Assembly: GCA_902778565.1 (NCBI GenBank)
Contig: CACYYH010000009.1
Span: 1-42,492, forward strand
From: an uncultured Eubacteriales bacterium
GTDB lineage: Bacteria > Bacillota > Clostridia > Peptostreptococcales > Anaerovoracaceae
Length of the DNA: 42,492 nt
Direction: 5' to 3'
Position numbers and translations under genes: made by a program. The first letter of the stretch is position 1. Every line of letters begins with the position of its first letter. Shown piece after piece: positions 9,930 through 35,641 of this stretch. The notes beneath the pieces are model-generated. The model made no database searches and was not told the DNA's origin. It saw only the letters and a list, made by a program, of their open reading frames with translations.

Positions 9930-10015
9930 AGAGGGTTGACCGAGTGGCTAAGGAGCCGCATTGGAAATGCGGTAAGGCGAAAGCCCCGCGGGTTCGAGTC
10001 CCGTGCCCTCTGCCA
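9930..10015 (+). tRNA. tRNA-Ser(GGA)
   Basis: An 86-nt class II tRNA with encoded CCA at 10013-10015. The acceptor pairs AGAGGGT with GCCCTCT, with one G-U pair. The anticodon stem CCGCA/TGCGG encloses loop TTGGAAA, giving anticodon GGA at 9963-9965. A long variable arm and T-loop GGTTCGAGTCC follow. A possible promoter (TTGCAA at 9857, extended GATAAC -10 box at 9878) lies upstream. Several pieces of its 3' end recur in the downstream repeat element. Confidence 0.96.
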
Positions 10016-10061: not shown

Positions 10062-10343
10062 GTATAACCGGAGGTACGGGACTCGAACCCGGGAGGGCGC
10101 GAGCGTAAGCCCGACAGTCCGGTGGACTGTCGGGCAGCGAGCGTGTCAAGCGGCCTGTGGAATAGGCCGCGCAGACGGTCCAGCGCGAGCCCCGTCAAGG
10201 AGGGGGCGAAGCAGCGGGGGTCCCGTGCCCTCTGCCAGAAATTAAAAAGACGAGCATTCGCTCGTCTTTTTAGTTTCTCCGGCAGATATGTTCGTTAGGG
10301 GCTCGGACCCGGGAGGGCGCGAGCGTAAGCCCGACAGTCCGGT
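10062..10343. repeat. GC-rich tRNA-Ser-associated repeat element
   Basis: No gene here. The stretch contains ACGGGACTCGAACCCG (10076-10091), the exact reverse complement of the tRNA-Ser T-arm (9989-10004). It also holds a perfect 12-bp hairpin with stem GCCCGACAGTCC (10109-10135), a second hairpin CGGCCT/AGGCCG (10151-10169), and a 19-bp direct copy of the tRNA 3' end plus CCA (10220-10238). Segment 10078-10123 recurs nearly unchanged at 10298-10343 (about 46 bp, few mismatches). It looks like a repeat family that carries or has captured tRNA-Ser ends, flanked by terminators at 10028 and 10244. Confidence 0.7.
10244..10271. terminator. Bidirectional terminator hairpin
   Basis: AAAAAGACGAGC, loop ATTC, GCTCGTCTTTTT: 12-bp perfect stem. 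It follows the duplicated tRNA 3' end just as the real tRNA is followed by its own terminator, but the stem sequence is unrelated. Confidence 0.85.
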
Positions 10344-10357
10344 ATGTTTGTGCGACA

Positions 10358-10601
10358 TCCTACTGGGAGGCGCGACGCTTGTTTTAGTGGGTCAAAAAAA
10401 GAATGGATATCCTACTAAAAAGCGCGACGCCTGTTTTAGTAGGAAAAATAGAAGGCAGAATATCCTACTGGAGAGGGCAACGCCGCTTTTAGTAGGAAAA
10501 AAACGAGAAAAGCCTACCTACTGGAGAGGGCGACGCCGCTTTTAGTAGGAAAAAATCTTAAAAATCGACCTACCAGATGGGGCGACGCCGCTTTTAGTAG
10601 G
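10358..10601. repeat. Array of five 34-nt hairpin repeats with 18-19-nt A-rich spacers
   Basis: Units of exactly 34 nt begin at 10358, 10410, 10463, 10516 and 10568 (period 52-53). Each starts (T/A)CCTAC(T/C) and ends AGTAGG (AGTGGG in unit 1), with a core of GCG/CGC or GGC/GCC around a 3-nt loop, so each can fold as a hairpin. Spacers at 10392, 10444, 10497 and 10550 differ and are A-rich. Unit 2 replaces the GGAGAG segment with AAAAAG, improving pairing with the invariant TTTT, which suggests that folding is conserved. The period is not a multiple of three, so the ORF crossing it is not coding. It is not a CRISPR: spacers are too short, repeats are diverged and no cas genes are present. Function unknown. 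Confidence 0.85.
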
Positions 10602-10651: not shown

Positions 10652-10680
10652 TTGTCTTAAACAATCCGATATGCTATAAT
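10652..10680 (+). promoter_or_regulatory. Sigma-A promoter of pepF
   Basis: TTGTCT at 10652-10657, 17-bp spacer, TATAAT at 10675-10680 with an extended TGC. A short GCGC/GCGC hairpin lies in the leader. Confidence 0.75.
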
Positions 10681-10727
10681 ACACTCGTGCGCTGAAGCGC
10701 AGATTTATGGAAAGGATAATCAGTTAT

Positions 10728-12431
10728 ATGAAATTTTCAGAAATGCCTTATGAGAGACCGGATGTGGAAGGTCTCAAGAAAGAGATAACGGAGTTTACGG
10801 AATCTCTGAAGAATGCAGACACATATGAAGAAGCCAGGGATATTTTTGTCAGAAAAGACCAGCTGGACAGACACGTAAAGACTTTGTCCACGCTTACATA
10901 TATCCGTCACTCCATAGATACGAGGGATGAGTTCTATGACGGTGAGATGAATTTCTGGAACGCAGCCGGACCTGAGCTTATGGAATACGACGAGCAGTGG
11001 ACCAGAGTGCTTCTTGATTCGAAATTCAGAAATGAGCTGGAAGCTGAGTTCGGCGAGGTCATATTCCTAAATGCCGAGCTTGAACTTAAGTCTTTCAAGC
11101 CCGAAATAATTCCTTTGCTTCAGAAGGAAAACGATCTTGTAACAGAATATGATAAGCTGATCGCCAACTCGAAGTTCCCCTTCAGAGGTGAGACTTCCAC
11201 AGTTACCAAGATCGGCAAGTACAAAACCGATGCCGATGATGACGTCAGGCTCGAAGCCTGGAAGGCAGACGGCAAGTGGTACAGGGACAACAAGGAAAAA
11301 CTGGATTCCATCTATGATCAGCTCGTTCATTTAAGAGATGAGATGGGAAAGAAACTGGGCTTTGAGGATTTCACCGGGCTTGGATACTGTCGCATGGTGA
11401 GAAACTGCTATGACAAGAACGACGTTGAGAAGTTCAGAAGCGCAGTGGTAAAATATCTGGTGCCCATTGCAGATTCCATCTACCGCAAGCAGGCTGAGCG
11501 CCTTGGTAAGGAATATCCCATGAGCTTTGCAGATAACGCTCTCATGTTCCGCTCCGGCAACCCGCGTCCTCAGGGGACTTCCGACGAGATCATTCAGGCT
11601 GCGAAAAGATTCTATGACGGCCTTTCTCCTGAGACCGGCGAGTTCTTCCGCTCCATGCTGGAGTGTGAGACCATGGATCTCCTGGCAAAGGAAGGCAAAG
11701 AGGGCGGAGGATATTGCGACGGGCTTACGGATTACGAGATGCCGTTCATATTTGCCAATTTCAACGGAACTTCAGGCGACGTGGAGACCATGACCCACGA
11801 AGCTGGCCATGCTTTTGCGGCCTGGTATAACAGGAAACGCATTCCTCTGAACACCATCTGGCCCAGCCTTGAAGCCTGTGAAGTGCATTCCATGAGCATG
11901 GAATTCTTTGGATGGAAGAGCGCTGAGGATTTCTTCGGACCGGATGCGCGCAAATTCCTTTACAGCCATCTGGCCACGTCCGTGACATTCATTCCTTACG
12001 GAACCATGGTGGACCACTTCCAGCACATCGTTTACGAGCATCCTGAATATACTCCGGATCAGCGCCACGATGAGTGGAAGAGGCTTCTTGGCATATACAT
12101 GCCGTGGATGAAGCTGGACGGAGAGATACCGTTCTACTCAGAGGGAATGGGCTGGCAGAGACAGTCCCACATCTATGACGTTCCCTTCTACTATATCGAT
12201 TACTGTCTTGCACAGACCGTTGCTCTGGAGTTCTGGGCAATGATCCAGGACGATTACGATAACGCCTGGAAGCACTATATGGCATATACAGAGCAGGGCG
12301 GTTCCGAAACTTTCACCAAACTTCTGGAGAAAGCCGGAATGGACAGCCCCTTCAACGAGGAGACCTTAAGAGGCGTCTGCGAAAAGGCAGGCAAATGGCT
12401 TGATGATTTTGACCTTACGGGTATTGAATAA
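10728..12431 (+). CDS. pepF: M3-family oligoendopeptidase (PepF type)
   Basis: Cytosolic zinc metallopeptidase of 567 aa that cuts short oligopeptides. The zinc motif HEAGH is at residues 357-361 and the third ligand region (EACEVHSMSMEFF) follows about 25 residues later. Length and the KFSEMPYERP opening fit this oligoendopeptidase clade. ATG 10728 was chosen over ATG 10707 because AAAGGA lies 11 nt upstream of it and family members begin there. It probably completes degradation of peptides brought in by the opp operon 0.7 kb downstream. The next gene follows after 11 nt, so both are likely cotranscribed. The gene symbol is by similarity. Confidence 0.9.
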   Translation: MKFSEMPYERPDVEGLKKEITEFTESLKNADTYEEARDIFVRKDQLDRHVKTLSTLTYIRHSIDTRDEFYDGEMNFWNAAGPELMEYDEQWTRVLLDSKFRNELEAEFGEVIFLNAELELKSFKPEIIPLLQKENDLVTEYDKLIANSKFPFRGETSTVTKIGKYKTDADDDVRLEAWKADGKWYRDNKEKLDSIYDQLVHLRDEMGKKLGFEDFTGLGYCRMVRNCYDKNDVEKFRSAVVKYLVPIADSIYRKQAERLGKEYPMSFADNALMFRSGNPRPQGTSDEIIQAAKRFYDGLSPETGEFFRSMLECETMDLLAKEGKEGGGYCDGLTDYEMPFIFANFNGTSGDVETMTHEAGHAFAAWYNRKRIPLNTIWPSLEACEVHSMSMEFFGWKSAEDFFGPDARKFLYSHLATSVTFIPYGTMVDHFQHIVYEHPEYTPDQRHDEWKRLLGIYMPWMKLDGEIPFYSEGMGWQRQSHIYDVPFYYIDYCLAQTVALEFWAMIQDDYDNAWKHYMAYTEQGGSETFTKLLEKAGMDSPFNEETLRGVCEKAGKWLDDFDLTGIE

Positions 12432-34922: not shown

Positions 34923-35094
34923 AAAGCGATCCGGGTCTGTGGTTGCAAATCCAGGCCAGGCACGGGCGAAGGGATCCACGTAAGCAGCCGAAGAAGAGTA
35001 AGCTGTGAGCATGGCGTGCTTTAGAAGTAAGTCCTCCGGAAATCGGATCAAGGCAAGTGTGGGGGCAAAGACCAGGTCAGCCGGATATGCTTTT
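34923..35094 (+). ncRNA. raiA-motif structured RNA
   Basis: A 170-nt non-coding stretch between a good promoter and hpf/raiA, the genomic place where the raiA RNA motif is found in Firmicutes and Actinobacteria. Ends pair over long range: ATCCGG (34929-34934) with CCGGAT (35081-35086), CTG with CAG, GGT with ACC, and GC with GC. Inside are Gly/purine-rich single strands and smaller hairpins such as AGCA/TGCT near 35010. A TTTTAATT run follows the closing helix. The motif's function is unsettled, with reported effects on sporulation and aggregation in a Clostridium. Identification is by position and fold, not by alignment. Confidence 0.78.
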
Positions 35095-35113
35095 AATTCA
35101 AGGAGGTATCACA

Positions 35114-35641
35114 ATGAAGATTACCGTTACAGGCAAAAACATTGCAGTAAACGACAAGATCAACGACGCCATCGATAAGAAGTTCGCCAAGATCGGCAAG
35201 TTCTTTGCAGATGACATCCAGGCAAAGGTGCTCATGCATCCCGAAAAAGCCAAGGTAAAGGTAGAGGCAACAATTTCCGGCAAAGGAAACATTTTCAGAG
35301 CAGAATCAGTTGCTCAGGACGTATTCGATGCCATCGATGACGTGGCAGAGAAACTTCTGAAGCAGATGTCAAAATACAAAAAGAAACTGATCAAGAAGAA
35401 CCAGGGTAAGGAATCCGTAAGATTCGAAATGATCCCTGAAGTACCTGAAGCTGAAGAAGAGACCAAGATCGCTAAGACCAAGAAGTTCACACTTACACCT
35501 ATGACAGCAGAAGAAGCCATCCTTCAGATGGAGCTCCTGCAGCACAACTTCTTCGTATTCCTGGATGCTGAATCCGGAAACGTAAACGTAGTTTACAAGA
35601 GAAACGACGAAGATTACGGACTTCTTGAAACAGAACACTGA
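35114..35641 (+). CDS. hpf: Ribosome hibernation promoting factor, long form
   Basis: A 175-aa ribosome-associated protein. Residues 1-95 form the S30AE/YfiA domain that occupies the mRNA/tRNA channel of the 30S subunit. A Lys/Glu-rich linker leads to the C-terminal dimerisation domain (about 120-175, with PMTAEEAILQMELLQHNFF), which joins two ribosomes into an inactive 100S dimer. AAGGAGG at 35100-35106 sets ATG 35114; the GTG at 35057 lies inside the upstream RNA. Probably expressed with the raiA RNA. Confidence 0.94.
   Translation: MKITVTGKNIAVNDKINDAIDKKFAKIGKFFADDIQAKVLMHPEKAKVKVEATISGKGNIFRAESVAQDVFDAIDDVAEKLLKQMSKYKKKLIKKNQGKESVRFEMIPEVPEAEEETKIAKTKKFTLTPMTAEEAILQMELLQHNFFVFLDAESGNVNVVYKRNDEDYGLLETEH

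Follow-up and report, generated by a model that had tools for sequence, protein, structure and literature searches.

Intergenic arrays of regularly spaced CCTACT/AGTAGG inverted repeats in Clostridia

The window, by which we mean the whole 42,492-nt stretch of DNA analysed here, comes from a gut bacterium of the Clostridia and carries a row of inverted repeats between a tRNA gene and a putative pepF gene (10707-12431, + strand), an open frame for which we retain the name given in the initial annotation. Matches to this frame were found at 68-85% identity in five of six genus mates, and in the sixth at 41% only. The gene for tRNA-Ser(GGA) (9930-10015, + strand) lies upstream of the repeats and also adjoins the pepF locus of genomes G005 and G003. 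Beside it lies a GC-rich element (10070-10236 and 10294-10345), the ends of which copy the 3' end of the tRNA in both orientations; related elements are present beside the two other arrays of the same genome, on contigs 8 and 18, and at the G005 pepF locus. In the interval between the repeats and pepF, a sigma70-like promoter match (10652-10680, + strand), which is a consensus match only and of a kind that occurs 1.2 times per region in shuffled sequence, starts 50 bases past the array, in agreement with the distance given originally. Further along the window, a raiA RNA (RF03072, Rfam; 34926-35090, + strand) is found just before an open frame (35057-35641) that we take to resemble a ribosome hibernation factor.

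Direct reading of the sequence resolves the array (10359-10601, + strand, period 52-53) into five inverted-arm units of 33 nt each, of the form CCTACT-N21-AGTAGG. Unit 1 (10359-10391, + strand) ends in AGTGGG, a single arm change that is G-U compatible on the + strand; unit 2 (10411-10443) has the longest perfect arms, of 10 bp; units 3 (10464-10496) and 4 (10517-10549) follow; and unit 5 (10569-10601) begins with CCTACC, one arm change that leaves an A-C mismatch. The linkers between them, all on the same strand, are of 19 nt (10392-10410), 20 nt (10444-10463), 20 nt (10497-10516) and 19 nt (10550-10568). The initial annotation was right in counting five units; their length is 33 rather than 34 nt, and the linkers are therefore of 19-20 nt and not 18-19 nt. 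The start-to-start distances of 52, 53, 53 and 52 are identical to those first reported. The description of the ends also stands, all five units starting with CCTAC, four ending in AGTAGG and one in AGTGGG, as does that of the core bases, with GCG/CGC in units 1-2, GGC/GCC in units 3-5 and AAAA opposite TTTT in unit 2 only.

Tandem Repeats Finder scored the array at 198, with a period of 53 and 4.7 copies. A search pattern made up of a unit and the arm that follows it matched 14 times per strand in the window's own genome, all in three arrays, against none in the reversed control, which places the window array far above chance; the array is thus confirmed as real. An 85-aa open frame (10288-10545) crosses three of its units and most of a fourth. 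Since the array period is not divisible by three, we take this frame to be a chance occurrence and the array to be non-coding.

The window's own genome (G000; 1.78 Mb in 86 contigs, 90% complete) contains 18 units in three arrays, namely on contig 9 (the window, five units), contig 8 (six) and contig 18 (seven). The arm motif is confined to these arrays, three other matches being unlike the units, and the arm-pattern search found no solitary units in this genome. Searches of other genomes showed the arrays to extend beyond one locus and one lineage: 33 array loci with 151 units were compiled from 11 genomes of two Clostridia families, which their non-overlapping member lists indicate to be distinct. 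The carriers came from several searches. Seven of the 11 (G373-G379) derive from a scan demanding an interior of 21-22 and a linker of 17-21, two (G504 and G772) from a loose search, and G000 and G005 from separate searches; the carrier genomes were then re-searched with 16-46 allowed for the linker and 20-23 for the interior, and in chaining both could span 8-70. Carriage is sporadic. Within the family of the window's genome, two of 349 genomes are carriers (G000 itself and G005), single matches to the reversed control pattern occurring in three; two of seven genomes in its genus carry arrays, as do one of two in the genus of G772 and one of 10 in that of G375. The loose search (interior 12-32, linker 10-30), run on the family of G376 (397 genomes), gave matches in seven genomes, with 19 in G376 and 29 in G772 against none in the controls, one match with regular gaps in G504, and one irregular match in each of the other four, as also seen in the control of many genomes.

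A scan for two adjacent units in a collection of 84,980 species returned 17 stretches in nine assemblies, eight of which are titled Clostridiales or Lachnospiraceae, several originating from deer or goat gut. The match in a 'proteobacterium' (L067) was judged by eye to be a different, GC-rich type of palindromic repeat and was left out, and the RUG14236 locus (L068), which formed no chain under the chaining rule, is outside the 33 loci. Two array patterns gave no stretches in viral contigs; a third gave two, which are phage repeats of another make. In these phage contigs (L152, 847-924; L153, 10587-10664), a common CCCTACTT/AAGTAGGG repeat cluster lies beside a 662-aa primase-like open frame. 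The window array had no match in plasmids and phages, and an array of genome G001 had none in plasmids. At gathering score, Rfam matched only raiA and tRNA in the window, and nothing over the array; at eight array loci it likewise gave no match over the arrays. No account of CCTACT/AGTAGG arrays, or of such arrays in Lachnospiraceae, was found in the literature, in a coverage outside which most subscription papers fall. We thus found no named repeat family that fits the array type, in line with the initial annotation, which knew of none.

Comparison of the loci shows what a single array does not reveal, namely that arm sequence and spacing are the features conserved across arrays. The interior between exact arms is 21 nt in 65 and 22 nt in 39 of all 104 cases. 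The linkers between exact arms (n=92) are of 17 (1), 19 (18), 20 (52), 21 (1), 29 (18), 30 (1) and 51 nt (1), counts that omit chains with changed arms, some of which have irregular gaps. Array periods are accordingly mostly 52-54 or 63 bp, which at 10.5 bp per turn corresponds to five (about 53 bp) or six (about 63 bp) helical turns of B-DNA. The 63-bp class comes from few lineages: six loci of G772, arrays of G373 and G374, and an array of 2.2 copies in G006. In the 28 of 33 loci with at least three units, likeness within arrays averages 95% for the arms (biased upward, as collection was limited to arms with at most one change), 67% for the interior and 58% for the linker, and the arms exceed the interior in 26 of 28 arrays and the linker in 27 of 28. 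In the window array, the interior is 74% and the linker 41% alike. Units are near-identical within several arrays of G376, G378 and G772. Between arrays of one genome (eight genomes), arms are 92-97% and interiors 10-53% alike. Immediately beyond the arms, most bases are characteristic of the genome (A in G000 and G005, G in G376, TAA in G772), as would be expected of a coevolving recognition.

The same layout occurs with other arms. Genome G001, a congener without CCTACT arrays, has arrays of up to 15 copies with periods of mostly 52-55 and the arms TGTGGTCCACT, GTGGGCCGCA, TGTGGCCCA, TTGGGCC and CAGGCAGGGC; these arms vary between arrays yet pair, and represent more than one motif (CAGGCAGGGC). 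Triplets of GTGGNCCAC matched 36 times per strand in this one of the seven genus genomes, with no match in the control. A 53-bp array without long arms is also present in G001, and at L080 (1440-1800) of this genome an IS200-like tnpA fragment follows a tRNA cluster and directly precedes the TTGGGCC array. Scans of 1.81 Mb of DNA, the window and random stretches included, revealed further tandem arrays. G003 has a tandem array of period 44 with arms not above chance; its pepF locus has a compact interval from tRNA-Ser to pepF and no array. The pepF locus of G005 holds, besides the GC-rich element, a degenerate inverted repeat that differs in sequence. Near a CCTACT array in G005 (L071, about 120-430), there is another type of array, in which sites containing ACGCGT alternate at about 25 and 29 nt with a period of 54. 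In G017 (L313, 18000-18700), repeats of about 66 bp with the arms GAATTTA/TAAATTC follow one another in tandem, the copies being uneven in length.

By a simple longest-ORF rule the arrays are intergenic, short open frames crossing some of them. Both neighbours could be called for 26 arrays, of which 15 lie between co-oriented, eight between convergent and three between divergent genes. tRNA genes are found within 0.6 kb of all three G000 arrays, and likewise at G005 C46 and G375 C56. For two of six arrays examined, a strict scan found an intrinsic terminator in the 300 nt upstream. Mutual comparison of 107 flanking proteins turned up isolated pairs and a single family of weak similarity, present at three loci (G373 C2, G374 C198 and G504 C14); no neighbour family occurred at more than three loci, and reading of these proteins by eye revealed no DNA-binding gene recurring beside arrays.

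The arrays have a folding signal that is stronger on one strand. Compared with dinucleotide shuffles, the window units have z-scores of -3.0 to -4.4 on the + strand and of +0.3 to -4.3 on the - strand, the + strand folding better in four of five. Of the 15 arrays with co-oriented neighbours, 13 fold better on the sense strand, and in 13 the excess over interior shuffles is also greater on that strand (Wilcoxon p 0.002, an indicative value only, as the readings of phase and sense strand were made post hoc and among several tests). Arrays that share a genome are not independent, and in two cases the orientation was assigned manually from adjacent tRNA genes. A sense-strand preference is already present with shuffled interiors in 13 of 15, so that the bias is partly one of composition, and DNA folding parameters give the same sign in 12 of 15, which leaves room for lagging-strand DNA hairpins. 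The sense-strand excess of G-U pairs is not significant (10 of 15 arrays, p 0.23).

Symmetric Watson-Crick pairs in the interior exceed shuffles of each unit's own interior in 13 of 15 arrays. When arms were dealt within the genome, there was no Watson-Crick excess at interior positions 7-15 (nine positions, 139 distinct units) or at linker positions 7-14 (119 linkers), and several positions fell below expectation. A cross-genome covariation at linker bases 1-3 (z up to 6.2) vanished under the same dealing and was rejected; it is due to the genome-specific bases outside the arms. Within the arms themselves, compensated changes were found as CCGACT/AGTCGG (G377), CCGCCT/AGGCGG (G772, with units changed in both arms in two arrays) and CCCACT/AGTGGG (G378), and partly compensated ones as CATACT/AGTATT in the degenerate last unit of G005. 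Among 1314 cells, 252 had a one-sided arm change, 42 were changed on either side and paired, and 39 were changed and unpaired; this is a lenient extension that includes random flank, so that the counts are rough and only clear cases were used. The initial suggestion of selection on folding is in part supported, by the shuffle z-scores and the sense-strand preference of 13 arrays; the internal covariation adduced for it is not supported.

The array type is closest in kind to STAR and BIME, and by the tested features it is neither STAR nor GTAG REP. According to PMC3532100, the STAR elements of Staphylococcus form interspersed intergenic arrays with nearly fixed spacers and, at the gapR locus, one to six motifs; their loci differ between species, and they have been known for years without an assigned function. 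The CCTACT arrays share the interspersed intergenic setting and the nearly fixed spacers, seen at 33 loci under the simple ORF rule. They differ in that the STAR motif, described there as a 14-bp GC-rich T(G/A/T)TGTTG(G/T)GGCCC(C/A) with 40-44 bp spacers, is absent from the window array by eye, and in that this spacing is not reproduced, the CCTACT-to-CCTACT period being mostly 52-54 or 63, against 57-59 nt (about 5.5 turns) in STAR copies. The STAR period was taken from six contigs of a viral collection (L339, L343-L346 and L349), which we took for staphylococcal from the motif. By eye, the STAR units of these contigs have inverted arms CCCCAAC..GTTGGGG around a nested hairpin, a feature absent from the STAR text in the part of PMC3532100 that was available.

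With GTAG REPs and BIMEs, the arrays have in common that they are intergenic palindromes in inverted pairs and clusters, with several types per species group (PMC3733652). The unpaired GTAG tail is missing here, GTAG lying inside the paired arm at both ends, and the arrays lack a consistent RAYT and own-genome singletons and have a fixed lattice of five or six turns. In Tn3-family res sites, 53 bp separate sites I and II and a helical-turn rule applies. The CCTACT units are similar in having inverted arms that end sites of about 28-34 bp, and in the 53-bp spacing; they differ in forming rows of several units at many loci per genome, and serine resolvase PF00239 was not found in two of 11 carriers. 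Tandem repeats classed as false CRISPRs also alternate repeats and spacers and lack cas genes. Membership of that class is a matter of exclusion, with neither arm motif nor lattice in its description, as far as the consulted part of PMC5294841 goes, and arrays of the CCTACT kind could have been filed under it.

Two enzyme families were considered as partners. The Y1 transposase (PF01797) occurs in two of nine carriers tested (G374 and G379), is absent from G000 and G005 (85% complete), and is present in three of five genus mates without CCTACT arrays; RAYT/Y1 was rejected on its presence in two of nine carriers. PF00239 is found in nine of 11 carriers and four of 10 other genomes, and is absent from G005 and G378. 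Its association with the arrays, involving common genes, is weak, and neither singles out this enzyme as a partner nor eliminates it. It left our assessment unmoved, since PF00239 is widespread and the proteins it matched are of varied length, the open frames in carriers ranging from 92 to 615 aa.

Somewhat short of an even chance, we favour the reading that the CCTACT arrays are an intergenic family acting as double-stranded DNA, with inverted sites for a putative arm-reading factor on a phased lattice. Each unit of 33-34 nt would be an inverted arm pair and each arm a site for a sequence-specific cell factor; stacking of the units at five or six turns would place bound factors on the same face, where they could interact, and arrays between transcription units might serve as points of chromosome anchoring or insulation. 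Conserved arms, free interiors and fixed, stepped lengths favour such DNA-level arm reading, as does the confinement of the motif to the three arrays of G000. The genome-specific flanks, together with the use of another arm motif in G001, suggest that the arm reader coevolves with its sites. The factor, its cooperative binding and the insulating role of the arrays are what we infer from this pattern. Against DNA reading stand the restriction of the 63-bp class to few lineages, the existence of other arrays at periods of 66 (G017) and 44 (G003), the presence of more than one arm motif in G001, the lack of a DNA-binding gene recurring by eye beside the arrays, the finding of Y1 transposase in two of nine carriers only, the weak association of serine resolvase, and the sense-strand folding bias, which is outside its predictions; the two-sided CCGCCT/AGGCGG change in two G772 arrays favours pairing over a fixed recognition sequence.

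The main rival is that hairpins form on the sense strand, in read-through or 3'-end transcripts whose rows of arm-closed hairpins would shield the ends of the RNA or be bound by an RNA-binding protein. REP hairpins at mRNA 3' ends act in such roles. We regard this RNA rival as possible and rather doubtful. Folding is favoured by the compensated arm changes and the sense-strand bias, to which the excess of symmetric interior pairs and the arms of G001, which differ between arrays and still pair, can be added. These are opposed by the lack of a within-genome pairing excess and of a significant G-U excess, the predominance of one-sided arm changes (252 against 42), the sense-strand preference of shuffled interiors in non-independent arrays, and the like sign of DNA parameters; moreover, neither the fixed lengths nor loops as large as 13-25 nt would be expected of simple RNA hairpins, and three of 26 arrays lie between divergent genes. 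DNA arm reading and folding are not mutually exclusive.

We rate as doubtful too, nearly on a par with the RNA rival, a neutral or selfish palindromic minisatellite, in which 53-bp units would multiply through slippage or unequal crossing-over and reach new loci while bringing the cell no advantage. The near-identical units of several G376, G378 and G772 arrays, the sporadic distribution and the array-free G003 pepF locus fit this explanation; the retention of arms while interiors and linkers diverge, both within and between arrays, the two period classes about one turn apart and the lack of solitary units in G000 do not. Mobilization as a GTAG-type REP/BIME by a RAYT (Y1) transposase is very improbable: the arms do contain GTAG/CTAC, and 23 of 26 arrays lie between co-oriented or convergent genes, like REPs, which are mostly found between unidirectional and convergent genes (PMC3733652), but the distribution of Y1, the paired GTAG at both ends and the missing G000 singletons speak against it. 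A CRISPR-type array can practically be dismissed in spite of the repeat-spacer look. The near-identical repeats and unrelated spacers of CRISPR are seen neither in the window array nor in the 28-array means; with interiors 67% alike on average, the repeats of most arrays are not near-identical, the linkers are of 19-20 nt, and no cas gene was recognised among the window's ORFs read by eye. The initial verdict of a CRISPR-like layout that is not CRISPR is thus upheld.

Returning to arm reading at the DNA level, we advance, tentatively and as an idea that is itself unlikely to hold in full, that the arrays belong to a sporadic and recurrent target system of Clostridia, in which each genome's own arm motif and phased arrays would serve a fast-evolving putative factor and form stacked nucleoprotein bodies at the boundaries of transcription units. 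The array family offers a handle on this question through its defined short arm motif, two lattice steps about one turn apart and a genome-specific motif; as the motif differs by genome, an arm reader could be searched for by pull-down or co-occurrence. If such a factor exists, the arrays would belong to a chromosome-organising or mobile system absent from the literature consulted; if none exists, they would provide a clean case of minisatellites that keep their structure.
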